From: Planctomycetia bacterium TMED53
GTDB lineage: Bacteria; Planctomycetota; UBA8108; UBA1146
DNA: 52,030 nucleotides
Reading direction: 5' to 3'
Assembly (NCBI GenBank): GCA_002167285.1
Contig: NHDG01000056.1
Coordinates: forward strand, 1 to 52,030
The notes beneath the pieces are model-generated. The model ran no database searches. It had not been told where the DNA came from and worked only from the letters and a program-made list of their open reading frames with translations. Below are positions 6,344 through 40,034 of the stretch, piece by piece. The position numbers and the translations under genes are program-made. Each line of letters starts with the position of its first letter. Position 1 is the first letter of the stretch.

Positions 6344-7786
6344 TCAGTTCCCCCCCAGCTCTTTGAGGAAGGGAAGCAAAAAGGTGATCGGCTTTCGATA
6401 TTCGGTGGTCGCATCGATAGCGACCGTCATACCGGAGGTGACCTTGATTTCTGGCCCCTTACCTGAAGACCACTCGTAACCACTGCTCGTTTCATCGGAG
6501 CGTTTGAGGTTGCTGCGAACTTCAATCATCGATCCGCCGGTGCCCAAGCTTTGGGCAAGTTCCTTGTTGCCGATGGTGGCGGCGATGGAATCGGTCGAAC
6601 GCGGAATTGAAGAAACGCTCGTCACCTGACCGAGGATGCTGCCGAAGCGTTCCTTTTTGACGGTGGTCGGAGTGACACGGGTAGGCATGCCTTCGGCGAC
6701 TTTTTTACCGTCTTTGACTGGGAAGTAAGCGACGACTACGAGGGCATCTGTGCCCGCGTTGTTTTCCATCGATCCGATCTGCTGACCCGGGGCCAAAACC
6801 TGGCCGGGGGCTATGTTCAGTTCGATGACCTTGCCCGAATAAGGAGCTTTGATCACCGATTGATGACTCAAGTTTTGAGTCAGCCGCTGCACTCGGCCTT
6901 CGGCTTCTTTGATCAACATGTTTTGTTGTGAGTTCTCAGTCAGCTCTGCTTGGTCGAGTCGCGCAATCTGAACATCGAGTTCTTCCAGCTTGCGGTTCAG
7001 TTCTTCGATGTCGTCAAGACGTGTTTGGTGCTCGGCGAGGAACTGCAGTTTTTGATAATCGAGATCGTGTTTTTTCACTTGGAGTTCAGAGAGGGAGACT
7101 TTGTTGGTCAACAACTCCTGACGGGTGTCGTGAAGATCTTCATCGTACTCAGAGAAGATTTCATCTTTAGCTAAGTCTTCGTAGTTGGCGAGTTTTCCCT
7201 TTAGGTACTCCCCAAGTGATAACAAATCCTGTTCCAAGGTGTTGAGCTGTTCGACCTGCTTCTTCAGGTAAAGTTCTTTTTCGTCATGTCTGAGAGTCGC
7301 CAGGTCGGTGTGGATTTGAATCTGTTTTTGGTACCAGGCTTTTTTGGTTTCGATAAACGATTTTTCTGAACTGAGGGTTTGTAGGCGAAGCTCTTCATTG
7401 AGTTTGGTTTTGGCTTTGAGTTCTGCGAGCATCGCCTCTTCGACTGCCAGCTGCCCTTCCAGTTCTGGTTGGTATACCTCTGCGATGACCTGGTCGTATT
7501 GAACAGATTCACCTGGGCCTACCTTCAGCTTGAGCAGCTGACCTTGGGAGTGGCTGTGCAGGGGGACCACTTTTCCGGGGAAAACCATGATCCCGTTGGC
7601 TTTGACATTGACCGGTATTTGGCCAAAGAAGCACCAGAGGATGAAACAAGCCATCCCCAGCCCAACGACAAATACGGGCAGCCAATTGCGGCGCGGTAAC
7701 ACCTCGAGCATGGTGTCGAGCTGCTCTGGCGTGGAGATATGCTCCAGTGCTTTCTTTTGAAACAAGGAGGGCTTTTCGGCGGACAA
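6344..7786 (-). CDS. HlyD-family secretion adaptor of the NHLP export system
   Basis: 480 aa; single N-terminal TM, biotinyl-lipoyl-like half motif (VPLHSHSQGQLLKLKVGPGESVQYDQVIAEVYQPE), coiled-coil region, then APYSGKVIELNIAPGQVLAPGQ. Confidence 0.85.
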   Translation of the reverse strand: MSAEKPSLFQKKALEHISTPEQLDTMLEVLPRRNWLPVFVVGLGMACFILWCFFGQIPVNVKANGIMVFPGKVVPLHSHSQGQLLKLKVGPGESVQYDQVIAEVYQPELEGQLAVEEAMLAELKAKTKLNEELRLQTLSSEKSFIETKKAWYQKQIQIHTDLATLRHDEKELYLKKQVEQLNTLEQDLLSLGEYLKGKLANYEDLAKDEIFSEYDEDLHDTRQELLTNKVSLSELQVKKHDLDYQKLQFLAEHQTRLDDIEELNRKLEELDVQIARLDQAELTENSQQNMLIKEAEGRVQRLTQNLSHQSVIKAPYSGKVIELNIAPGQVLAPGQQIGSMENNAGTDALVVVAYFPVKDGKKVAEGMPTRVTPTTVKKERFGSILGQVTSVSSIPRSTDSIAATIGNKELAQSLGTGGSMIEVRSNLKRSDETSSGYEWSSGKGPEIKVTSGMTVAIDATTEYRKPITFLLPFLKELGGN

Positions 7787-7820
7787 AATTACTCCTGGCG
7801 GTTAACGGTTATATCAACAA

Positions 7821-8372
7821 TCAATGTTTTCGGGATCGCTCGATCAGGTATTCGAATCGGCGACCGGCCAACGACACCGCTTCCAAAACATCCGGATCGA
7901 CGATGCTGAGATCGTCATCCTCGTTTTGTGCTTCGGCAGCTTTGATATTCCCTGCTGTGAGTGTGGTTTGAGTCAGATGGATCAAACGTTGGGCTAGGCA
8001 AACGCCGATCGCTTTGTAAAAGCGACTGCCAAAGTTTGCATCGGTTCTCAACTTTGCAGATAGATCCCTGCGGGAAACTTTCAAAACATTTGTTTGCTCG
8101 AGGGCGATCAGGGTTACGGCGGGAGGTCTCGAATCAAGGAATGAAACTTCACCGACGATTTCGCCGGGGTAGAGGGTCGACAGGGATTTCTCAGGATTGG
8201 CGAGGGTGGTGACCTTGAGAGAGCCTTCAAGGATGATGCCGAGAGAGTCGAGGTGAACCCCCTCTTCGATGAGAGTCTCCCCCTCCTGGAGAGCTTGGGT
8301 CTTTCCAACCCTGGCGAACCAATCGATATCCAGGTCTTCAAGGACTCCTAGGATGATCAATGAATTACGCAT
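7821..8372 (-). CDS. Cyclic nucleotide-binding (Crp-like) domain protein, no obvious HTH
   Basis: 183 aa; GETLIEEGVHLDSLGIILEGSLKVTTLANPEKSLSTLYPGEIVGEVSFLDSRPPAVTLIALEQTNVLKVSRRDL matches the cNMP-binding beta-roll; no C-terminal winged helix seen. Confidence 0.8.
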   Translation of the reverse strand: MRNSLIILGVLEDLDIDWFARVGKTQALQEGETLIEEGVHLDSLGIILEGSLKVTTLANPEKSLSTLYPGEIVGEVSFLDSRPPAVTLIALEQTNVLKVSRRDLSAKLRTDANFGSRFYKAIGVCLAQRLIHLTQTTLTAGNIKAAEAQNEDDDLSIVDPDVLEAVSLAGRRFEYLIERSRKH

Positions 8373-8444
8373 CGCTGTTAAACCTGTTTCTACTATTCGA
8401 CATTGACAATAGCGTCTGTTAAGAATCTATTTTGCACATAAAAA

Positions 8445-8489
8445 AAACCGATTGCCCCAACTAAATTAAGTGGTTGAGGCAATCGGTTT
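8445..8489 (-). terminator. Rho-independent terminator downstream of the small double-glycine peptide gene
   Basis: 12-bp perfect stem AAACCGATTGCC / GGCAATCGGTTT with an A-run at the plus-strand left side (U-tract on the minus transcript). Confidence 0.75.
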
Positions 8490-8543
8490 GAAGTTTGTAG
8501 TGCTTCTCTTGGTCTGGTTCGTTAAACCAGGCCTGAGTTACGA

Positions 8544-8741
8544 CTACTTGCCCTTGGTATTGATCTTGGTCGGATCGGGCTTGGGATCAAAAGCGTCTCC
8601 ACCACCGGGCATTGGCTTGTGATCGTCTCTGGCGCTGGCGGCAGTCTTCTTAGCTTTGAGCATTTCTTCTTTAGACATGCCTTTGGCTCCGCCTGCAACA
8701 CCCTCAAGATCTGCGTCGGAAATTTTGTTCTCGTCACTCAT
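8544..8741 (-). CDS. Candidate double-glycine-leader precursor peptide exported by the NHLP system
   Basis: MSDENKISDADLEGVAGG|AKGMSKEEMLKAKKTAASARDDHKPMPGGGDAFDPKPDPTKINTKGK; leader resembles 'LSDxELExVAGG' double-glycine leaders; start chosen at ATG 8741 with RBS-like AGAAGGTGG 8 nt upstream. Confidence 0.75.
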   Translation of the reverse strand: MSDENKISDADLEGVAGGAKGMSKEEMLKAKKTAASARDDHKPMPGGGDAFDPKPDPTKINTKGK

Positions 8742-9364
8742 GGTTTGACCCACCTTCTATCTTGGAGACCCAATAAACGGGGACACAGCATTCGCTGCAA
8801 ACTATTGAAAACGGCGTTGTTGGATCTCCGCCTTCCAACGCCAACTTCCTTCACTGTCAATAAACTCCTAAAAAGCTAGGAAATCAATGACCCGAACTTC
8901 AGGTCCTCACAGTCGATTTCATAAAATCTGTATCAGATCCTATCGATCGATCAGACACCCCAATCTTACATTTTAGGAACTTCCGGGTAAAGGTCTCAGC
9001 TTGAGAGATTAAATATATGAGATTATTACAGTTATGAAATTTCAATGAATGATTCCCTCGTTGAGGGAGCCTTTAAGGGGTTGGGTTTTCCCGATATATC
9101 CCCCAATTTTCCAACATATGCGTTACAGGAACTCAAGAAGGTGCATCCGATAAATTTGAACCTTCAGGTCGGGAATTTGACGTCAGTTTATGCACGACGC
9201 GGTGATAGCAGTGACGGGTTTGAAGTTGTAAGTCGGAGGATTGATCGAAATGAGTTTCTGCCATCGACCTTGCTTTTACCTCCGAATCGATTTGCGATAA
9301 CGGAGTGATTTCAAGTTGATCTTTACTCGTTTGCAATTTTGGAAATTTAGAGAGACTGTCACCC

Positions 9365-10036
9365 ATGAAAATCTCGCTTCACCCCTACCTCGCGGAGTTT
9401 CTCGGGACTTTCGGTCTGGTGGTCAGTGCGACCAGTGCCGGAACTCTGGCCAGCCTTGGTTATTCCATCAGTCCGCTGGGAGATGGGCTCTTCTCAGGGG
9501 TGGCGGTGCTTTTGATGATTCTCCTCTTTGGCCCTGCTTCTGGGGCGCATATCAATCCGGCGGTATCGATAGCGATGGTGCGTGCTGGAAAGTTATCGAA
9601 GTCAAAGCTGCCCGGTTACCTGATTGCCCAGTTTTTCGGGGCTGTGCTGGCGAGTGTGGTGATGCGGCAGATTTTTGCTGAGGCCCCCTCTATTGGTGCT
9701 CATCAGCCGGGAAGCTTGGGGTTGATCGGCAGCTTGTGGATGGAAGTATTGCTGACCGCCATTCTCGTCGGCGTGATCTTCTGGATCATCGATCAGGATT
9801 GGGCGAAGGGGCCGATCCCCGCCGTGGTCATCGGTCTAACGGTCACGGTGGAGGTGGCCCTTGCCGGATCCTTGAGCGGGGCTTCGATGAATCCGGCGCG
9901 CAGTTTTGGTCCGGCGCTGGTTTCCGGCGAGCTGGCCTCGCTGTGGATCTACTTTGTGGGTCCATTTGCCGGTGGTTTGGTGGCGGTCACGCTGTGTCGG
10001 CTGCTGCGTCCGGGCCCCTGTTGCCAGACCTGCTGA
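9365..10036 (+). CDS. Aquaporin / MIP-family channel
   Basis: Two NPA motifs (GAHINPAVSIAMV and GASMNPARSFGPALVSGE), six TM-like segments. Confidence 0.93.
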   Translation: MKISLHPYLAEFLGTFGLVVSATSAGTLASLGYSISPLGDGLFSGVAVLLMILLFGPASGAHINPAVSIAMVRAGKLSKSKLPGYLIAQFFGAVLASVVMRQIFAEAPSIGAHQPGSLGLIGSLWMEVLLTAILVGVIFWIIDQDWAKGPIPAVVIGLTVTVEVALAGSLSGASMNPARSFGPALVSGELASLWIYFVGPFAGGLVAVTLCRLLRPGPCCQTC

Positions 10037-10103
10037 GGGGTTGAGGTCGGTTCCTCATGACTGATGATCAGAGCGGTGTGTTTGCCGTTTTGATCGGAGG
10101 TGT

Positions 10104-11708
10104 GTGATGCGGACGATGGTTGGAACCCTTGTAGCAGGGCTGTTGTTGCTGGCCAGTTGTGCCGGCAGTCCGCAGCAAAGGGAGGTGGAAGCGACCACTC
10201 CCAATATCCTGTTTATCTTTACCGATGATCACGCCTCCCATGCCATCGGTGCCTATGGCAGCCGTTTTCCTGGCGATAACACCCCGCACCTCGATCAGCT
10301 GGCGGCAGAGGGGATGCGCTTTTCCCGTTGCGCGGTGACCAATTCGATTTGCGCACCGAGTCGGGCAGTCATCCTGACCGGCAAGTACAGCCATCTGAAT
10401 GGGGTGCTCACCAATGCGGAGCGTTTCGATGGTGCACAGGTGACCTTCCCCAAATTGCTTCAGGAACAGGGATATCAGACGGCGCTCTTCGGAAAGTGGC
10501 ATTTGAAGTCGGAGCCGACAGGTTTTGATCACTACGAACGACTGATTGGCCAGGGCCCCTACTACAACCCGAAGATGCGTTTCCCGGACGATTCGAAACA
10601 GGGTTTCGGTGAGCGGCTTCATGAGGGTTACACTACCGATGTGATCACCGATTTGGCCATCGATTGGTTGAAGGGGCGGGAAGAAGGATCTGGCCCATTT
10701 ATGGCGATGGTTCAACACAAGGCACCCCATCGGCATTGGCAACCGGCGCCGCGACATCTGGATCTGTTTGCGGATATCGAGATAGCGGAGCCTTCGAATC
10801 TCTTTGACGATTACTCGACGCGGGGGACTGCCGCCCATATTCAGGATATGGAGATCGCCACCACGCTGACCCCCCACGATCTTAAATTGGCTCCTCAAGG
10901 ACGCTTTAACGCTGATCAGCAGAAGTTGTGGGATGCGGCCTATGAACCCAGGAATGCCGCATTTCAACAAAAGAAGGCGGAGATGAGCGAGGAGGAGATC
11001 GTTCGTTGGAAGTATCAACGCTACCTCAAGGATTACCTGCGCTGTATCCGTGCGGTCGATGAAAATATCGGTCGCTTATTGGAGACCCTCGATGAACTCG
11101 ATTTAAGTCGTGGCACCATCGTCATCTATTCATCGGATCAGGGGTTTTTCCTCGGGGAGCATGGGTGGTTCGATAAGCGCTTTATGTATGAGGAGTGTTA
11201 TCGCACGCCGCTGATCGTGCGTTGGCCAGGGGTGACGGATCCGGGGCAGGTGAATGATCAACTGGTCAGCAACGTCGATTACGCGCAGACATTCCTCGAT
11301 ATTGCAGGATTCTCCGAAAACCGTGAGGAAGTGCAGCAGATGCAGGGAATTAGCCTAAAGCCGCTGCTTCAGGGAGAGGACGTTCCGGTCCGTAAGAGCC
11401 ACTACTACCAGTATTACGAGTATCATCCGGATCGAAAAACCGCCCATATGGTTCGTAGGCATCGGGGAGTGGCCACCGGTCGCTACAAGCTGATTCACTT
11501 CTATAATCTCGATGAGTGGGAGCTGTACGACCTCAAAGAAGATCCCCATGAGATGGTCAATCGCATCGACGATGAGGAACTCTCGCACATCCGCAAAGAT
11601 CTAGCGGCTGAGCTGGAGAGGCTCGCAAAAGAGCTCAAGGTTCCCGACGATCGAGGTAGTGTTTCCAGGGATCCTCACCGCCTTATCGAGGGTCTAAAGC
11701 AGCGATAA
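10104..11708 (+). CDS. Secreted/lipoprotein sulfatase
   Basis: Lipoprotein-type signal ([10 protein letters not shown]); [19 protein letters not shown]; sulfatase signature [22 protein letters not shown]. Confidence 0.9.
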
Positions 11709-11944
11709 GAGCGCAATTTGGGCGAAGTTAGCCCTTGAATCTCATGGTTATTTCGTAAACATGTAGCGCTTACCAAAAATACAAAGAGATACGTATATAA
11801 AAATATAAACAAATGGTGACTGTGGCCTGTCGACCGTCTGTTGCATGCTTGTATTCTCGCGTGGGGCCCCTAGCTTGCAGAGAAACGAATTCTGGGGATC
11901 CGGGAGTATACGTTAATGATGTAAATGGAAGTAATTGCCCGGGA

Positions 11945-12724
11945 TTACAGGCAGGATTGAGCGCAGTCGAGGGGGTCTGGCGTCAGATCTTGGGAACATT
12001 CAGGGAAGGGAGTCACGGGCGCTGGGCCGCCATTGAAGAGGAAGTATAGCCCGTAGATGGGGTCACTCAGATTGAAGCCTCCATCGTCATTCACATCTGC
12101 AGCTTTGCGGCAAAGGATGGGGCTGACCGTGTCTGGCTGAAACAGATTTCCTAAGCTGGTAATCACATCCGACATGTTGAAGGAGCTATCAACATTGACG
12201 TCTCCGCGCATGAAGTTCTGCTGAATCGGGGGGGTGATCCGCAGTACCAGATTCGTCAGGGCGATATTGTCGATGAGGATGGAATCCTGTTCCTTGAGGT
12301 TGATGAATAGAACTCCCCCACCGAAGGCGTCTTCTAGGGTAAAGCTCCCTGAATTGGGGAGATCGGCGGAATTCCACTGCAATAAGATAGGATTGGTTTG
12401 GTAGAAGTTCAGGCCGATGACGCAAACCAAATCTGTATTCGAAGGAGAACGCCGACAGGTTTTCCATTCTTGGCCATCGATGCTGATCCAGGAATGGAAT
12501 GCAGAGTTGTTCGCTGGCGGTGTGCTGTATTCGTCTTCACCTTGGACAAATCCGTCGGAGGCGCCTTGCGCCTGGGAGAGGATGAGGGTGTTGATGCCAC
12601 CTCCCGCTGCACCAAGGGATGAGCTGGCTTCTAGCTCAAGATAGAACTCTTGCGCTGAGGTAGCCGCCGGAAGCAACAGGCAGGTGGTTACGAGCGAGAT
12701 AAATAATGTCTCGGTGAGTTTCAT
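11945..12724 (-). CDS. Secreted protein with C-terminal dockerin-like repeats
   Basis: Signal peptide MKLTETLFISLVTTCLLLPAATSAQ (start chosen at 12724); GDVNVDSSFNMSDVITSLGNLF and ADVNDDGGFNLSDPIYGLYFLF duplicated Ca-binding/dockerin-like segments. Confidence 0.7.
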   Translation of the reverse strand: MKLTETLFISLVTTCLLLPAATSAQEFYLELEASSSLGAAGGGINTLILSQAQGASDGFVQGEDEYSTPPANNSAFHSWISIDGQEWKTCRRSPSNTDLVCVIGLNFYQTNPILLQWNSADLPNSGSFTLEDAFGGGVLFINLKEQDSILIDNIALTNLVLRITPPIQQNFMRGDVNVDSSFNMSDVITSLGNLFQPDTVSPILCRKAADVNDDGGFNLSDPIYGLYFLFNGGPAPVTPFPECSQDLTPDPLDCAQSCL

Positions 12725-13003
12725 CACACGTCCATAGGTCAGATCTTTGCCGTTTTCGGCGAAGACCCTTTCAGGTTGAATAACGTTCGGAATGAAAACC
12801 AATTTGGGTCGAGAATATAAAAGGTGACCCTGGTCCCTATTCCGGGATAAACAGTCGAATAATACAGGTCTCATCTTATGGTGAGTTGGGACCGTGATGA
12901 AGCGCGAAGGACCTGAGTCACAAGTGGCAGTTCTGACACTCAGGGCACGTTTGCAAGGTCTTCAGGCTCTATCGGGCGATCTCAGAAGATGATCTCTGAA
13001 GAA

Positions 13004-14617
13004 TTATCTCAATGGGCCTGGTTGCAGCAGGTCCTCCAGTTGAATGCCGTAATCCTTCAAGATCGTCCCGGTGGCATTGCGATAGCCGGTGATCGCTTTG
13101 CGCACGCGGATCTGCGCTTGCAGTTCCTGGACTTGGGCGGAGAGCAAACTGTTCTGCACCTGCAAGACTTGGTAGGCGGTGGAGACTCCTGCCTCGAGGC
13201 GACGGGTTTCCCCATCGAGCTCTTCGCGGCGCAAGCGTGTCGCTGCCTGGGTTGTTTCGACGGCCTGGCGTGCGCTCTCCAGTTCTCGGACCGCGCGGGT
13301 GACTTCTAGAATGATGCCATTGGAGAGCTGGTCCTTGTTGAGCTGAGCCAGCCTCAAATCTTCCCGGGCTTGCATTTGGCGGTTTTTGGCGGCCCTTTGC
13401 CCCAGCGGGATCTGCAAGTTGAGCCCGGCGCTCCAAGAGTAGTCGTCCCCCACATTGGACCAGGATTCGCTGAAACTGAGGCCATTCCCCGGTTGGCTGA
13501 AGCTGCCGGTCAAATCGAGGGTGGGCAGCAAATCGTTCTCTCTGACCCTCAGCAGGTCTTTGCTGCTAGCGATCTGTAGATCACTTTGGGCCAGCTCCAA
13601 CCGACGGACGAGCGCCTCTTCGACGACCGCCTCCATCTCAGGTGTGAACTGAGTCGGATTGAGTGCAGAAGTGGGAATGATCTCCACATCCTTGAGCAGA
13701 GACGGAGCTCCTACCGAGCGGCGAAATTCAGGGGCATTGATGCTGTCGAGAAGGATGTCCTGGAGATCACGCAGGATGTTGAGGGCGGCGATGATGCTGG
13801 ATTGCTGGGTGGCCACATTTGCCTCGGCGCTGATGACGTCGAGTCGTGTTCCCAATTGTACTTCGAGGCGACGACGATTGAGGTCTAAAAGCTCCTGTGC
13901 TTCTTGCAGTGCACTCCTCTGAACCTCGACGTTGCGGCGCGCGTAGACGAGATCCCAGTAGCTGCTTTCAACGCTGGCCACCGTAGTTTCCATCGATCTC
14001 ACAGTCGCCAACTTTGAAGACTCAGCATTGCGCAAAGCTACGCGTAGATTGGTTTCGGTAATTTCCTTGCCGCGGCCGCGAAGAAGAGGCTGGGTCAGTG
14101 ATAACTCGACCCCACTGCGATAGTTCAAAGGTAGGAAGAAAGGACTGCTGGAGGTGGTTTCAGAGCGGTTGCCATTGAGGCGGAATTGCCAACTGGTGCC
14201 GTATCGCATCAAGCCGGAAAGCCCCATGAAATAGCTGTCATTGGAGCGATTTGAGGTCTCTCCGACTTCGGCTCCATCGATGATGCTGGTCGACGTTGTT
14301 TCTGATTCGCTGAGGGAAAACCCGGTGCTGAAAAGGGGGTCGAATGCCGCTTCCGCGATGAGCGGATCGAGGTAGGCCCTACCCTGAGAAACGCGCTGAA
14401 CTTGTAAGCCTAGGTTGTGTTCGAGGGCGAGTTGGATCGCCTCGGAGAGGCTCAGTTTACGAATCTCTCCCGATTCAAAGATGCGCTCTTCATCGCTGAC
14501 GGGATTATTTTTCATCTCCAATGCGTGGGTGGCTGGAGTGATCAGCAGCACCACAACGGCAAAGAGAAACGCAGTGGAAAAGGGCACTGCAGAGTTGCGC
14601 AGAGATCGTGCAAACAT
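13004..14617 (-). CDS. TolC-family outer membrane efflux protein
   Basis: LSLSEAIQLALEHNLGLQVQRVSQ, repeated coiled-coil regions, LDVISAEANVATQQSSIIAALN, final AYQVLQVQNSLLSAQVQELQAQIRVRKAITGYRNATGTIL. Confidence 0.9.
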   Translation of the reverse strand: MFARSLRNSAVPFSTAFLFAVVVLLITPATHALEMKNNPVSDEERIFESGEIRKLSLSEAIQLALEHNLGLQVQRVSQGRAYLDPLIAEAAFDPLFSTGFSLSESETTSTSIIDGAEVGETSNRSNDSYFMGLSGLMRYGTSWQFRLNGNRSETTSSSPFFLPLNYRSGVELSLTQPLLRGRGKEITETNLRVALRNAESSKLATVRSMETTVASVESSYWDLVYARRNVEVQRSALQEAQELLDLNRRRLEVQLGTRLDVISAEANVATQQSSIIAALNILRDLQDILLDSINAPEFRRSVGAPSLLKDVEIIPTSALNPTQFTPEMEAVVEEALVRRLELAQSDLQIASSKDLLRVRENDLLPTLDLTGSFSQPGNGLSFSESWSNVGDDYSWSAGLNLQIPLGQRAAKNRQMQAREDLRLAQLNKDQLSNGIILEVTRAVRELESARQAVETTQAATRLRREELDGETRRLEAGVSTAYQVLQVQNSLLSAQVQELQAQIRVRKAITGYRNATGTILKDYGIQLEDLLQPGPLR

Positions 14618-14809
14618 GGTGGGCCTCCGGGATCTGCCCCCTTTAAGGGGTGCTTCCCATCATAGGCGAGTTGCCACTGCTACAGCAAGGAAAGCGGGCA
14701 GAACTCCCCCATGCCCACGACCTATTTTGATCGAAGTTTTCGGCTCGCCGATGGGCTTGTAGTCGGGCTTCCTGAGGCCTTGAGGGCAAGCTGTAAGTGC
14801 TTTATATGA

Positions 14810-15574
14810 CTAGCTTTGTGTTAAAACGTGTCCGCGTGTAGAGACGGGTCTGGGGCGCAGTCTGCCGACGGATGCAGGCACCGCATAAAGCAGCATCAAT
14901 GTGCCGGTGACTAGTAAAGAAAGTAGCGTGAGCACGATCAATGCTTTGCCAAATTCCGCTTCGTAGAAGCGCTGTAAAAACCAGCCGTTGCTGAAGACGC
15001 CGAGTCGAAAACCGATCCATTCGGCAAAGAAGAACACGCCGACTACACCGACTCCGGCAAGTGCACCCGCCATCGCTTCTCTGGTTCGAAGCCCGGCAGC
15101 GAGAACCATCGCAGCAAGAGCAACGACCACCAAAAGAGCTGGCATGTCGAGAGTTGCGACCCCTGAGAAGGAGTTACCCAGAGAGTGGAAAAACGCTCCA
15201 GGCCCCCTCTGGGCGGCGAATTCGAGGGATTCTGGGCTTGGAACCACTGCGCTCAACTGTGGAAATTTTAGGACGCAAAAGAGGCTCGCCCCCACCAAGG
15301 CAGAGAGTCTTAAGAAGCTGCCAAGGGGCAGTGCGAGTCTTTGGACTCGGCAATCTCCTTCGAGGAGGAGCGGTTCACCGTCTCTCCATGGAGACATTCC
15401 ATTGATCGGAGTTGCGGTCGCCAGGCAGGTCAAGGTGCGTGCTAAGAGATCGGGGATCAGGGCTGGGAAGAGGATGCATTTCATCACGCCGCGGGATAAC
15501 AGGTCTCCTCGAAGTTGACCGATGGCCCACGAGAGAATTGAGATCGTCACGATTAAGCTTGTCAGCAGTAGCAT
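14810..15574 (-). CDS. Hypothetical multi-pass membrane protein
   Basis: 254 aa with several hydrophobic segments (ALLVVVALAAMVLAAGL; GALAGVGVVGVFFFAEW; LIVLTLLSLLVTGTLMLLYAV). Confidence 0.55.
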   Translation of the reverse strand: MLLLTSLIVTISILSWAIGQLRGDLLSRGVMKCILFPALIPDLLARTLTCLATATPINGMSPWRDGEPLLLEGDCRVQRLALPLGSFLRLSALVGASLFCVLKFPQLSAVVPSPESLEFAAQRGPGAFFHSLGNSFSGVATLDMPALLVVVALAAMVLAAGLRTREAMAGALAGVGVVGVFFFAEWIGFRLGVFSNGWFLQRFYEAEFGKALIVLTLLSLLVTGTLMLLYAVPASVGRLRPRPVSTRGHVLTQS

Positions 15575-15660
15575 TATGAGTGCTCCGGATGGCTATCGGC
15601 GGCGGGAAGAGGAAGCCGTAAAAGGATTCCATCCCCCCGCTGATCTCGGCCACCCAACAC

Positions 15661-16590
15661 TCAAGATTTTTTGACGATGAGGTCGGTGACGCGCTCGTAA
15701 TCCTCAGTGGAGAAGAAGTCGATGGTGATCTTTCCACGGCCTTTTCGATCTGTTTGGACGACTGAAACCTTTGTCCCTAAAAATTGCCCAAGTCGCTCCT
15801 CTTCCTCTTTGACGTGGGTCGAGGCGGCATCGGGCTTGCTTTTGGCCTTTGTAGGGTGCGCTGATGGGGTGGATTCGTGGGAATCATCCCCACGGATAGA
15901 GTTGTCCAAGTCGCGCACTGTCCAGTTGTTGGACAGTAATTTTTGGTGCCATTCTTTGCGCTCTTGCCGACTTTGGACGCCGAGCAAAATCTTGGCATGG
16001 CCTGAGGAAATTTTGCGATCCATCAAGCTTTGCTGGATTTCCCGATCGAGCTCGAGGAAGCGAAGAGTGTTGGCAACACTGGAGCGTTTCTTTTGCACAT
16101 TTTCAGCGAGTTGCTCCTGGGTCCAGTCGAAGGACTCTTGAAGGGCTTGGTAAGCACGAGCCAGCTCGATGGGGTTGAGATCTTCCCGCTGCAAGTTCTC
16201 AGTCAGTGCAAGAGCGAGCATGCGATCATTTTCAATCTCGCGGACGATGACAGGGATCTCCTTCAACTCAGCTACTCGGGAGGCGCGCAGCCGGCGTTCT
16301 CCGGCGATCAGCTCGTAGCCACCCTGTGGGCGTAGGCGAACCACCAGGGGTTGCAGAATGCCGTCGGCAGCCACGGAGCGGGAGAGCTCGTCGATGGCAT
16401 GGGGGTCGAAGACGCTGCGGGGCTGGTCTGGATTGGCGTGGATCTCATCCGGAGAGACGAAGCGAATTTCAAGTCCCTTTGTGGATGAGGCGTCTTCAGC
16501 GCTGCTATCCACGGCAGCCGCTGGGGGAGGCGGAGTTTGTTCCGACCTGCGAATCAGGGCATCAAGCCCGCGTCCGAGTTTGCGATTCAT
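15661..16590 (-). CDS. parB: ParB/Spo0J-family chromosome partitioning protein
   Basis: RKLGRGLDALI start, NPDQPRSVFDPHAIDELSRSVAADGILQPLVVRLRPQGGYELIAGERRLRAS, ALTENLQREDLNPIELARAYQAL, ISSGHAKILLG. Confidence 0.95.
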   Translation of the reverse strand: MNRKLGRGLDALIRRSEQTPPPPAAAVDSSAEDASSTKGLEIRFVSPDEIHANPDQPRSVFDPHAIDELSRSVAADGILQPLVVRLRPQGGYELIAGERRLRASRVAELKEIPVIVREIENDRMLALALTENLQREDLNPIELARAYQALQESFDWTQEQLAENVQKKRSSVANTLRFLELDREIQQSLMDRKISSGHAKILLGVQSRQERKEWHQKLLSNNWTVRDLDNSIRGDDSHESTPSAHPTKAKSKPDAASTHVKEEEERLGQFLGTKVSVVQTDRKGRGKITIDFFSTEDYERVTDLIVKKS

Positions 16591-17344
16591 GTCTCAGGAT
16601 CTCCTTTGCCAAGTTCATGTAGGACCAGGCTCCGGGGGAGCGCGAGTCATACAGGGGGATCGGTTGGCCGTGGCTTGTGGCTTCGGCCAGGGTCGAATCT
16701 CTTAAAATGGGGGTCTCCAGGGTTTCCTTAGGGAAGAACCTTTTGACTTCCTGGGCGACATCCAGGCACAGCTCCACCTCGGGGCTGTAGAGGGTTAGGA
16801 CCAGTCCCTGGATCTCAATCTCCCGCTGTAGATCTTGCTCTGCTTGACGAACTCGCGCCAGTACCTGGGCGAGGCCCTCCATGGCAAAGTACTCACATTG
16901 AACCGGGATGAGGACTGAATCCGCCAGGCCAAGGGCGAGGTCTGTCATCGGTCCAAGGCTGGGGGGGCAGTCGAGGATCACGAAATCGGGAGCCTCTTCG
17001 TGGGTGGACGACCATTCTTCGCGGAGGGTCGTGACTCCCGTTCCTCGGGCTTGTCTTTCGTCGATGGGGACTTGCAAGTGCAGTGAGCTGGGAAGGCATA
17101 GGAGGCCCTCCATGGCGGTTTGCTGGCAGGCTCTGTGCCACGCGAGGCGACCATCGAGGATGTCCGGCAGGAGTGATTTCTCGGGCCCCTCCAGGCCAAG
17201 GCCGCTCGTTGCATTGCTTTGGGGGTCGAGGTCTACCAGGAGAACCCGGGACCCTGCTTGTGCCAGGTAGGCGGCAAGGTTGATAGCGGTCGTGGTTTTG
17301 CCGACGCCACCTTTTTGACTGGTGACAGCGATGATTCGTGCCAT
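16562..17344 (-). CDS. parA: ParA/Soj-family partitioning ATPase
   Basis: Deviant Walker A ARIIAVTSQKGGVGKTTTAINLAAYLA, VLLVDLDPQSNATSGLG, DFVILDCPPSLG; overlaps parB. Confidence 0.95.
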   Translation of the reverse strand: MARIIAVTSQKGGVGKTTTAINLAAYLAQAGSRVLLVDLDPQSNATSGLGLEGPEKSLLPDILDGRLAWHRACQQTAMEGLLCLPSSLHLQVPIDERQARGTGVTTLREEWSSTHEEAPDFVILDCPPSLGPMTDLALGLADSVLIPVQCEYFAMEGLAQVLARVRQAEQDLQREIEIQGLVLTLYSPEVELCLDVAQEVKRFFPKETLETPILRDSTLAEATSHGQPIPLYDSRSPGAWSYMNLAKEILRHESQTRTRA

Positions 17345-17432
17345 TCCCTGAGTTCCCCTCTGATCGGACTAGCCCATGAGACTATCCGCGGAACGGTGGG
17401 GATCAAGCTCCCAGAGTGGCTCGATCTAAAAT

Positions 17433-17448
17433 TGTTCCACGTAGAACA
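17433..17448. promoter_or_regulatory. parS: parS-like site (one mismatch)
   Basis: TGTTCCACGTAGAACA, one mismatch from the palindrome TGTTNCACGTGNAACA; upstream of parA. Confidence 0.75.
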
Positions 17449-17475
17449 ATTTCGTTTCTGGGGATACAAGCGGAT

Positions 17476-17491
17476 TGTTCCACGTGGAACA
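17476..17491. promoter_or_regulatory. parS: parS site (perfect palindrome)
   Basis: TGTTCCACGTGGAACA, perfect 16-nt palindrome matching the bacterial parS consensus; upstream of parA. Confidence 0.9.
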
Positions 17492-17565
17492 ATCGCAGAG
17501 TTTCCAGGATTTGTTCCGGTCGAGGCGACTTGGGGTTAACATGTAACTGACAAGGAGTAGGGGAA

Positions 17566-18288
17566 GTGCGAATCGCGATCATCTCAGACATTCATGCGAA
17601 TCTCGAAGCCCTGGAGGCGGTGTATGCCTTCTTGGATGGCCAATCGGTGGATCGAGTGTTATGTCTTGGAGATGTGGTGGGGTATGGACCTGATCCTTCC
17701 AAGTGCCTTGGGTTGATCCAAGAACGCTGCGAAATCGTCGTTGCCGGAAATCATGAACATGCCGTCCTTGGTCTTCTCGATTTGGATTACTTCAATCCCG
17801 TGGCCAGGCATGCCACTCATTGGACTCGCGATGCCTTGTCAAAGGCTGAGCTCGAAGTCTTGCGAAGCTGGCCCCTGACTCACGTCGAGGACCCTTTGAC
17901 TTTGGTGCATGGCAGCCTCGATCAGCCCGATCTCTTCGACTACATCCAAACCAGCTGGGAGGCCCACCTCTCCTTCCAGCAACTCAAAACGCCGGTGGGA
18001 TTCATCGGTCACTCCCACGTGCCCATCACATTTCTACTCAGCGATGTCATCGACTACTCGACTGAGGACGAGTTGCTGCTCGACTTTGGCAACCAGGCCA
18101 TCGTGAACGTTGGGAGTGTGGGTCAGCCGCGAGATGGCAATCCGGATGCCTCGGTGGTCATCTTTGACCCGGAGCAAGGAATGGTGCAGAGACATCGAAT
18201 TCCTTACGACATCGAAGCGGTCCAAGCGAAGATTCTCGAATCAGGCTTGCCCGAGTTTTTGGCGCAGCGCCTGGCGGATGGGCGTTAG
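17566..18288 (+). CDS. Metallophosphoesterase (YfcE/calcineurin-like)
   Basis: MRIAIISDIHANLEALEAV, LCLGDVVGYGPDP, VAGNHEHAV, VHGS, GHSHVP, NVGSVGQPRDGNP motifs. Confidence 0.9.
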   Translation: MRIAIISDIHANLEALEAVYAFLDGQSVDRVLCLGDVVGYGPDPSKCLGLIQERCEIVVAGNHEHAVLGLLDLDYFNPVARHATHWTRDALSKAELEVLRSWPLTHVEDPLTLVHGSLDQPDLFDYIQTSWEAHLSFQQLKTPVGFIGHSHVPITFLLSDVIDYSTEDELLLDFGNQAIVNVGSVGQPRDGNPDASVVIFDPEQGMVQRHRIPYDIEAVQAKILESGLPEFLAQRLADGR

Positions 18289-18479
18289 CGTAAGTCCTTA
18301 TATTGTAAATACTTATGACGTCAGCCCCGAGTGTGTAGAAGCTTATTAGCAGGCACGAATTTGCAGGTATAAAGCGGGATCATCGACTCGATCCAAGCAG
18401 AATTGAAGCGCGAAAATTAAAGCCGTTGCGGGGCAGCTGGGTGAAGATTCTTTATCGATTGAGCAAGTCGAAATGAGAC

Positions 18480-18734
18480 TCAGGATTGTGATGAATCATC
18501 CCTCGGCGGGTCGTCGTCGTCGTTTTCGATCGTTTGCTTAAGCTCGTTGCTGGAATCCTTGATGCCTCTTTTGAACTCGGTGATGCCGCGACCCATGTTG
18601 CGCATAACGTTCGGCAAGCGGCTGCCAAATAGCAACAGTGCGACCACCAAGATCACGACAAGCTCGACTGGGCCTGGAGTCCAGGCAAGTTGAATGAGAT
18701 CGAGTTGGACAAAATTTTGAGTCAGTGCAAGCAT
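18480..18734 (-). CDS. tatA: Sec-independent protein translocase TatA/TatB family
   Basis: N-terminal TM followed by FGSRLPNVMRNMGRGITEFKRGIKD amphipathic helix; acidic tail. Start placed at MLALTQ (18734). Confidence 0.85.
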   Translation of the reverse strand: MLALTQNFVQLDLIQLAWTPGPVELVVILVVALLLFGSRLPNVMRNMGRGITEFKRGIKDSSNELKQTIENDDDDPPRDDSSQS

Positions 18735-18940
18735 CGGTTCCTCCAAAAAAAACAGCGCAGATCCCAAACTCAATCACTCAAAGAACGACTTCAAAGAATC
18801 GATTTCAATCGTCATTCGCAAAAGGTCAGCAAGCCGGTTGCTGTCGATGGATCTATCGACTGATTTAGAGCTCTATTATAGCCCCTAGGCAATCCTACGG
18901 GCAAGATCAGCAAAGGCTACGAAAACCGATAATTTGGGCG

Positions 18941-38348: not shown

Positions 38349-40034
38349 ATGAGTTCGGATACTGGGCTGGACCATCTAGGTTCTGAAGAAAACTCCCGGG
38401 GAAACTGCTTCAGTAAGGAGCCGCTTTCCCGGGAGATTCTTGATTGGCTCCGCGTGAACTCTGTACTTTCGATTGCATGGGATGAGTGTAAATCTAGGGG
38501 CAAATCCCCTGAGTCAATATTGCAGCTGGATGCTCGTGTTGTTGAATACCACAAATCAGAGATCATTTTGCGAAAAGGAGATTACGGCGGGTCGGTGCTG
38601 ATCCCGTTAAATGGATCTGTTCGTGTGAATCTTGAAGAGTCAGGTGAAAAGCATTTTGCCCGCAAAGAGTTATCTAAAAGACGCAGTTGGTTCTCTGCGT
38701 TGGGTCAGTTGTTCAGAAGGAAATCTCCTGTAGAGACTTTGCTGACTAATTCAGGCACAGCGAATGGCTACAACTCAAGAGTCTCTGTTCCCAGGCTTCA
38801 CATCGATCTTGAGGCATACATCCAAAAAAATCTTACGCGAAGAATCGAAATCGGCGACATATGCGGGGAGATAGCGGCTCTGAGAAGAAGTCCAAGAACA
38901 GCATCCATATTTGCAGAAACCGACTGCAGTTTACTTGAGATTCGTTGGCAGGGCGTGCGGGAGATCTTGAAGAACTCAAAAGAGTTCAGCTGGTATTTAG
39001 AAGATTTGATTGGCGACCGTCGACATCAAATCTTTTCTGGAATGAATGCTTTCAAAGATTTGACAGAAGGAACACAGCGTGCGCTTACTTCGAAGAGTAT
39101 CTTTGAACGATGGGGTTCTGAGCACTGGAATCGAAACTTTAGAAATATTCTCCAATCCCATTCTTCAATGATCGACCGGGAGCACCTGATATTGCCTCAG
39201 GGGCATCATGTCGATGGCCTATACGTATTATTGAGTGGCTTCGCAAGGGTGACCCATTTGGAGGCAGGAGAAGAGAAAACAATCGGCTACTTGAGGCCAG
39301 GTGATATTTATGGATTCAAAGAGTTGATGCAATTTGTTCAAAGTGGAAAAAGATCCCCCGCGCTGCGAAGTATCCGCGCTGTCGGAGCTATCGATTTAGT
39401 GGTGATCCCCGTTGACGATTTCGTTGAGCATGTGTTGCCAGAGTTAAAAGAAAAAGACATCAAGGCTTTGAGGTCAGAAAGGGGTTTGATCTCAACCGAG
39501 ATGCTGAACTTCTTCCTCGATCATAGAATCATCAATGGTAATCAGACGATGTTGATCGATATGAATCGGTGTACCGATTGCGATGATTGTGTGAAAGCTT
39601 GTGCGGTGACCCATGACGGAAACCCTAGGTTTATTAGAGAAGGTTATCGGCATGCCAGTTTGATGGTGGCAACTGCTTGTATGCACTGTATCGACCCTGT
39701 GTGCCTCGTTGGTTGCCCAACTGGTGCGATTCACCGAGAACCGGAATCAGGAAGTGTGGTCATCACGCGATCCGAGTGTATCGGTTGTGCGTCTTGTGTT
39801 GAATCTTGTCCATACAACAATATTCGAACAGTAGAAGTGCACGATGCAAATGGAGAGCCTGTCATCGATTTTGAAACAGGAAAGCCCGTCTTGAAGGCGA
39901 CGAAGTGCGACCTTTGCGTTGATCAGCCATCTGGGCCAGCTTGTGTGAATGCTTGTCCCCATGATGCACTTCACCGCGTGAACTTTTCCGATGTATCTGA
40001 GCTCTCAAAGGTGATCGGGAGAATCACAGGATGA
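38349..40034 (+). CDS. Fusion of two cyclic-nucleotide-binding-like domains with a four-[4Fe-4S] ferredoxin (DmsB/NrfC-like) domain
   Basis: Two beta-roll regions (VEYHKSEIILRKGDYGGSVLIPLNGSVRV...; LPQGHHVDGLYVLLSGFARVTHLEAGEEKTIGYLRPGDIYGFKELM) followed by CTDCDDCVKAC, CMHCIDPVCLVGC, CIGCASCVESC, CDLCVDQPSGPACVNACP. Confidence 0.88.
   Translation: MSSDTGLDHLGSEENSRGNCFSKEPLSREILDWLRVNSVLSIAWDECKSRGKSPESILQLDARVVEYHKSEIILRKGDYGGSVLIPLNGSVRVNLEESGEKHFARKELSKRRSWFSALGQLFRRKSPVETLLTNSGTANGYNSRVSVPRLHIDLEAYIQKNLTRRIEIGDICGEIAALRRSPRTASIFAETDCSLLEIRWQGVREILKNSKEFSWYLEDLIGDRRHQIFSGMNAFKDLTEGTQRALTSKSIFERWGSEHWNRNFRNILQSHSSMIDREHLILPQGHHVDGLYVLLSGFARVTHLEAGEEKTIGYLRPGDIYGFKELMQFVQSGKRSPALRSIRAVGAIDLVVIPVDDFVEHVLPELKEKDIKALRSERGLISTEMLNFFLDHRIINGNQTMLIDMNRCTDCDDCVKACAVTHDGNPRFIREGYRHASLMVATACMHCIDPVCLVGCPTGAIHREPESGSVVITRSECIGCASCVESCPYNNIRTVEVHDANGEPVIDFETGKPVLKATKCDLCVDQPSGPACVNACPHDALHRVNFSDVSELSKVIGRITG

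Follow-up and report, generated by a model that had tools for sequence, protein, structure and literature searches.

The known effectors of cyclic nucleotides are transcription factors, kinases, channels, and exchange factors. To our knowledge, where cAMP controls electron export in bacteria, it does so transcriptionally. The mtr genes of Shewanella, for example, respond to cAMP through the regulator CRP (PMC4417206). The locus analyzed here encodes an iron–sulfur protein with tandem cyclic nucleotide-binding (CNB) domains. The HycB/HydN/DmsB/NrfC subunits (HDCR HycB3, 7qv7; FHL subunit 2, 7z0s; NrfC-like, 2vpw) have four Cys sets in the same order as this protein, lack sensor domains, and work with molybdopterin or hydrogenase partners. 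In contrast, the fusion protein carries a tandem CNB module, and its operon partners are a reductase, a cytochrome b, and multiheme cytochromes, with no Mo/Ni enzyme. The tandem CNB arrangement is shared with the PKA regulatory subunit (PKA-R) and PKG (4z07, 6rsx), and domain 1 of the fusion has the canonical Glu/Arg pair; unlike in these proteins, the effector would be an iron–sulfur wire rather than a kinase, domain 1 holds a long insertion, and the domain 2 pocket has been lost in this clade. The MtrCAB, Pio, and Pcc conduits likewise run a chain of c-type multiheme cytochromes from the inner membrane to an outer-membrane β-barrel, whereas the present locus has a pentaheme cytochrome and an OprD-like barrel, yielded no clear MtrA/B homology with Pfam and NCBIfam models, and would receive its electrons from an NAD(P)H reductase by way of an Fe-S/cytochrome b unit. 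As for NuoEFG and diaphorases, a NuoEF gene and a NuoG-like Fer2_4 N-terminus would feed the same CNB-ferredoxin in a distant clade, but quinone and proton-pump subunits are missing here and the output is the cytochrome b/decaheme pair. From sequence comparison, we predict that the system works like a diaphorase-fed porin–cytochrome conduit with a PKA-R-like sensor.

The window, that is, the whole stretch of DNA that was analyzed, comprises 52,030 nucleotides of Planctomycetia bacterium TMED53 (contig NHDG01000056.1). The focal gene (C1) spans positions 38349–40034 on the forward strand and encodes 561 residues, exactly as reported in the initial annotation, in the order cNMP-binding domain 1 with an insertion, cNMP-binding domain 2, and a ferredoxin with four [4Fe-4S] clusters. 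Neither a signal peptide nor a Tat motif was seen in the protein, which is therefore presumed to be cytoplasmic. Pfam cNMP_binding (PF00027) matched it over three stretches with 92.5 bits (cut-off 27.5), and a Foldseek comparison of its AlphaFold model with the PDB placed the tandem CNB domains of PKG and PKA-R on top (E = 2e-15); both searches identified the N-terminal regions as cNMP-binding folds, in agreement with the two regions recognized earlier. Moreover, the family profile matched the cyclic nucleotide domains of PKG, PKA-R, and HCN among PDB sequences. In a six-frame PF00027 search of the genome, domain 1 (38541–38975, forward strand) was split, with profile positions 2–43 at 38541–38663 and 40–88 at 38829–38975. 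This two-segment match confirmed the long insertion that had been noticed in the first region, which measures about 55 residues (about residues 97–160). Domain 2 (39177–39428, forward strand) was intact and matched as one segment in the same search.

The phosphate-binding cassette of domain 1, GDICGEIAALRRSPRTAS (38853–38906, forward strand), contains G173, E174, A177, and R183, all invariant in a 40-member alignment across phyla, and the motif FGE[IL][AS]AL.R.PR[TS]A[ST] was found in domain 1 nearly everywhere in a 68-member alignment. In the latter alignment, the domain 2 cassette of the core clade was degenerate, reading [FY]G[LF]xE without the phosphate-binding Arg; it is canonical in the distant clade (L094–L096) and also in Sphingobium (L122). 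The conserved phosphate-binding Arg anticipated for the β-roll pockets was hence present in domain 1, as invariant R183 in the alignment, and absent from domain 2 in the core clade. The best reading of domain 2 in this clade is that of a putative structural pseudo-sensor.

The C-terminal part of the protein (39546–39983, forward strand) holds Cys408/411/414/418, Cys444/447/452/456, Cys477/480/483/487, and Cys520/523/532/536, the four complete [4Fe-4S] sets described at the outset. All 16 cysteines, located by Pfam, PDB sequence matches, and alignment, were invariant in the 40-sequence alignment, which included other genera and phyla, indicating that the four-cluster pattern is not due to chance. 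Fer4_11/Fer4_7 and 4Fe-4S dicluster domains scored above the Pfam cut-offs at about residues 400–545, and the PDB sequence relatives of this part were HycB, HycB-like, and NrfC-like four-cluster subunits. The DmsB, HydN, and NrfC models matched the four-cluster region, always far under their equivalog cut-offs; the best equivalog score was 76 bits, compared with cut-offs of 214 for DmsB, 260 for HydN, and 1003 for AegA. The initial description of a DmsB/NrfC-like ferredoxin therefore stands for the type and the Cys order, whereas family membership fails on both equivalog scores and partners. Judged by scores and partners, the fusion falls outside the DmsB, NrfC, and HydN families, and it does not belong to CRP/FNR either. 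A CRP/FNR regulator with stray Fe-S motifs was ruled out, as there was no HTH match and domain 2 is followed by the four [4Fe-4S] sets. A chance or frame artefact was ruled out by the invariance of the 16 cysteines and the cassette residues across phyla, and a MAG chimera by the recurrence of this operon in five genomes of the genus, in three further genomes of the family, and in complete genomes. A search of a phage-protein library with the focal protein returned a generic ferredoxin alone. The AlphaFold model of the focal protein had a mean pLDDT of 68, with about 80–90 in the sensor cores and <55 in most of the cluster region, and this weakness means that the clusters cannot be placed against the sensor. 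Elsewhere in the host genome (L002:1471–2997, contig C89 of G000), a four-cluster ferredoxin is fused to an NrfD/DmsC-like membrane domain in a 508-residue protein.

The focal gene lies within a run of seven same-strand genes. Upstream, C5 (32740–34644, forward strand) encodes a pentaheme c-type cytochrome that has one N-terminal hydrophobic, signal-like segment and resembles the solved cytochrome c552 (PDB 5ze8). It is followed on the same strand by C6 (34641–36023), a predicted outer-membrane β-barrel, by C4 (36033–37283), an FAD/NAD(P)H reductase with an N-terminal membrane anchor and a C-terminal plant-type 2Fe-2S ferredoxin, and by C3 (37327–38337), a tetraheme protein resembling cytochrome c554. 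Downstream, also on the forward strand, C2 (40031–40858) encodes a diheme b-type membrane protein and C0 (40855–42930; likely GTG start at 40855) a membrane-anchored decaheme cytochrome. Three junctions show 4-bp overlaps, namely C5/C6 (34641), C1/C2 (40031), where the ATG of C2 overlaps the focal stop (ATGA), and C2/C0 (40855), where the putative GTG of C0 overlaps the C2 stop (GTGA). The C6 barrel had no Pfam match; its AlphaFold model had a mean pLDDT of 80 and found its best PDB matches in MOMP and OprD-family porins, which points to an OprD/MOMP-like porin fold. C2 carries four invariant histidines, His74/His88 and His248/His262, with each pair 14 residues apart, which we take, from established knowledge of cytochromes b, to be the ligands of two b hemes. 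In C0, an N-terminal Cys-rich segment is followed by basic residues and one TM helix, so that the hemes should be periplasmic; the Cys-rich cytoplasmic segment is a candidate metal- or cluster-binding site and a possible point of contact with the Fe-S subunit. The N-terminus of C0 (40855–41160) and those of its relatives repeat the pattern W.CG..G.PC..GP...G.C......C.P, without a Pfam match. A PDB search with the C0 decaheme cytochrome gave no match, and conduit homology in the operon amounted to weak general multiheme matches (Mtrc-MtrF_II-IV domain), with the DmsE-type decaheme model well below its cut-off. In searches with Pfam and NCBIfam models, no known catalytic oxidoreductase subunit (molybdopterin, NrfA-type CXXCK) was encoded in the window operon.

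Two other regions of the window were noted. Convergent with the operon, two FAD monooxygenase-like genes flank a MalY-like aminotransferase gene (42942–46537, reverse strand), and relatives of these genes adjoin the operon in the genus and in the sister genus. A second, short cNMP-binding protein of 183 residues (7821–8372, reverse strand) is encoded upstream of a same-strand membrane-fusion-type efflux/secretion gene, with no visible link to the focal operon.

A search for relatives, with one genome per species, returned 46 loci, of which 43 contained the fusion or its fragments and three (L074, L075, and L077) were merely short ferredoxin matches. Of the 294 genomes sampled in the host phylum, 59 matched at E ≤ 1e-20, the weakest of these matches being partial in their coverage of the protein. 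Nine named phyla were represented in a tree of 66 members, with clustered phylum labels; the focal fusion is no lone oddity and belongs to a conserved family that reaches across at least nine phyla. Some members carry additional FHA domains, N-terminally in L036, L046, L055, and L058 and internally in L092. FHA domains bind phosphothreonine, and their addition to the CNB-ferredoxin suggests a second, phosphorylation-linked input. A generic RefSeq product name was all that was found by way of annotation, with no known family of described role, and a literature search on cNMP binding together with ferredoxins, multiheme proteins, or Planctomycetes, which covered open-licence papers and is thus weak evidence, found no description. 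The gene set forms a widespread electron-transfer operon that is apparently undescribed.

Conservation of the gene set was evaluated in 41 full-context loci, defined by flanks of ≥6 kb in both directions. C2 and C0 were present in 40 of the 41, the C4 reductase in 36, and the C3 tetraheme protein in 35; the C5 pentaheme and C6 barrel genes were found in 24 loci each and were missing nearby in the other 17. Neighbor clusters C7, C13, and C41 were disregarded as long antisense ORFs in GC-rich loci. C2 occurred in 46 of 288 planctomycete genomes (the host phylum), and 45 of these 46 also have the fusion. Furthermore, in 59 of 62 loci, C1 and C2 overlapped or were separated by ≤60 bp; over-long ORF calls account for part of the negative gaps. 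Because of this co-occurrence and the C1/C2 adjacency, C1, C2, and C0 were taken as the constant core of the system.

The input module around this core varies. In the core clade, it is the FNR-type reductase C4. In the distant clade (L095 and L096), the fusion has a NuoG-like N-terminus (Fer2_4 and further Fe-S sets), and the next gene encodes a NuoE–NuoF fusion, as recognized by Pfam in L095 and by sequence in L096; in L097, a NuoEF protein adjoins a split version of the fusion. The split version (L097:7018–13690, G216) comprises a CNB and Fe-S protein of 866 residues and a separate four-cluster ferredoxin of 237 residues. In Sphingobium plasmids (L122), the fusion is joined to a pyridine-nucleotide-disulfide oxidoreductase, and the genes after it are related to C2 (E = 3e-28) and C0 (E = 3e-36); the RefSeq annotation of the fusion is merely 'cyclic nucleotide-binding domain-containing protein'. 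On plasmid pMSHV of Sphingobium herbicidovorans, the order at 7735–18846 is oxidoreductase-CNB-CNB-ferredoxin, cytochrome b, decaheme, and phosphodiesterase (PDE)-like phosphoesterase; the decaheme protein has an FHA-like N-terminus, and a ten-heme LVIVD-repeat cytochrome of 1329 residues is encoded nearby. That three kinds of NAD(P)H module are found with the same core supports NAD(P)H as the electron partner.

Several loci also link the operon to enzymes of cyclic nucleotide metabolism. A class III cyclase gene adjoins the operon upstream on the opposite strand in six loci (L033, L053, L070, L076, L088, and L089) and lies nearby in two (L051 and L069), and in L097 a class III cyclase–protein kinase fusion is adjacent to the split system. 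A cyclase was encoded within 5 kb in 6 of the 25 family-carrying genomes, whereas cyclase counts and genome sizes lead one to expect 0.28; with one genome per genus, the figure was 3 of 18 (P = 0.0014). In the linked cyclases, the metal-binding Asp is conserved, as are the Asn/Arg residues. Their base-selecting positions are non-canonical, and therefore we do not claim cAMP as the product. Those of L069 and L089 carry FHA domains. The cyclases of L053, L033, L088, L070, L076, and L051 form a subfamily with the pattern VDYYGD ... KYGPRG..VN.A.R. In Sphingobium, the gene after the decaheme cytochrome encodes a calcineurin-like phosphoesterase, whose best NCBIfam matches were the models for SpdA and for the 3',5'-cAMP phosphodiesterase, both well below the cut-offs. 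The host genome encodes three class III cyclase domains, none of which adjoins the focal operon, and in most lineages no cyclase adjoins the operon.

We consider it fairly probable that the operon encodes a transmembrane conduit from NAD(P)H to multiheme cytochromes, with the cytoplasmic Fe-S subunit under allosteric cyclic-nucleotide control. Electrons from NAD(P)H would enter via the flavin/2Fe-2S reductase (C4), and the four [4Fe-4S] clusters of the fusion would relay them to the diheme cytochrome b (C2), from which they would pass to the membrane-anchored decaheme cytochrome (C0) and the periplasmic tetraheme protein (C3); where present, the outer-membrane porin (C6) and the pentaheme cytochrome (C5) may take the output to the outer membrane. 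The tandem CNB module would serve as the allosteric switch. A 3',5'-cyclic nucleotide bound in domain 1 may alter the geometry of the CNB helices, and this change may shift how the ferredoxin domain docks with, or is spaced from, its donor (reductase) or acceptor (cytochrome b), so that the second messenger could raise or lower electron export without acting through transcription. Since the host genome has a heme-copper oxidase, the operon would be an additional outlet rather than the sole respiratory chain. A broader reading seems to us about evenly balanced between true and false, namely that the family is a cyclic-nucleotide-gated respiratory complex in at least nine phyla, in which cAMP, cGMP, or a related cNMP controls trans-envelope electron flow and an invariant core of tandem-CNB ferredoxin, diheme cytochrome b, and decaheme cytochrome has recruited NAD(P)H modules (FNR, NuoEF/G, or pyridine-nucleotide oxidoreductase) and extra FHA inputs.

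CNB folds can have structural roles or bind other ligands. The complex may accordingly be real, with CNB domains that dimerize or tether the Fe-S subunit or bind another ligand, and that do not sense cNMP. We regard this as unlikely. It draws on two observations that also count against the gated-conduit reading: the domain 2 pocket is degenerate throughout the core clade, where the phosphate-binding Arg is lost, and neither the host nor most lineages have a cyclase gene beside the operon. Some regulators with a CNB fold are known not to bind cNMP, and trypanosome PKA-R was among the fold matches. The non-canonical base-selecting positions of the linked cyclases, the low scores of the PDE-like gene, and the weak model of the cluster region weigh against the gated-conduit reading as well. 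Against the structural alternative, the Glu/Arg pair of domain 1 is invariant in nine phyla, a degree of conservation that structure alone would not require, and the cyclase linkage recurs in at least three genera. Because of this invariant pair, together with the cyclase and PDE-like genes linked in several lineages, ligand-controlled electron flow via sensor 1 appears to be the best-supported reading. The ligand-gated or allosteric flow suggested in the initial annotation is in this respect partly supported; the degenerate domain 2 pocket, the conserved multi-gene operon, and the wide distribution of the fusion are additions to that picture.

Other alternatives concern the far end of the chain and its direction. 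The tetraheme protein resembles cytochrome c554 and the pentaheme protein cytochrome c552, and the absence of nearby pentaheme and barrel genes from 17 of the 41 full-context loci would suit a regulated periplasmic reductase system, acting on a nitrogen or sulfur oxyanion or in detoxification, with the barrel as an accessory porin. We regard this explanation, too, as unlikely; against it, the window operon lacks a known catalytic subunit (molybdopterin, NrfA-type CXXCK), and barrel and pentaheme genes co-occur, in 24 loci each. It appears distinctly improbable, on the other hand, that the conduit runs inward, carrying electrons from an extracellular or periplasmic donor to NAD(P)+ or an iron–sulfur pool, and that the cyclic nucleotide restrains this flow. 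Porin–cytochrome conduits can run inward, as in PioAB photoferrotrophy (PMC10304953), no sequence feature fixes the direction, and the heme-copper oxidase of the host leaves no obvious need for the operon as a sole terminal sink. Nevertheless, reduction of NAD(P)+ from c-type hemes needs energy, the operon encodes no energy-coupling subunit, and the modules that were repeatedly recruited usually oxidize NAD(P)H.

If the proposed export conduit under cyclic-nucleotide control is correct, a sensor built into an electron wire would be a new class of cyclic nucleotide effector. Relatives of the fusion are present in the isolates Hwanghaeella grinnelliae, Sphingobium herbicidovorans, and Ca. Uabimicrobium amorphum, and the system is therefore open to testing. 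Such a sensor would allow the cell to change rapidly from retaining reducing power to exporting it and back, and the operon would represent a defined electron-export system in Planctomycetota, Verrucomicrobiota, and marine proteobacteria.
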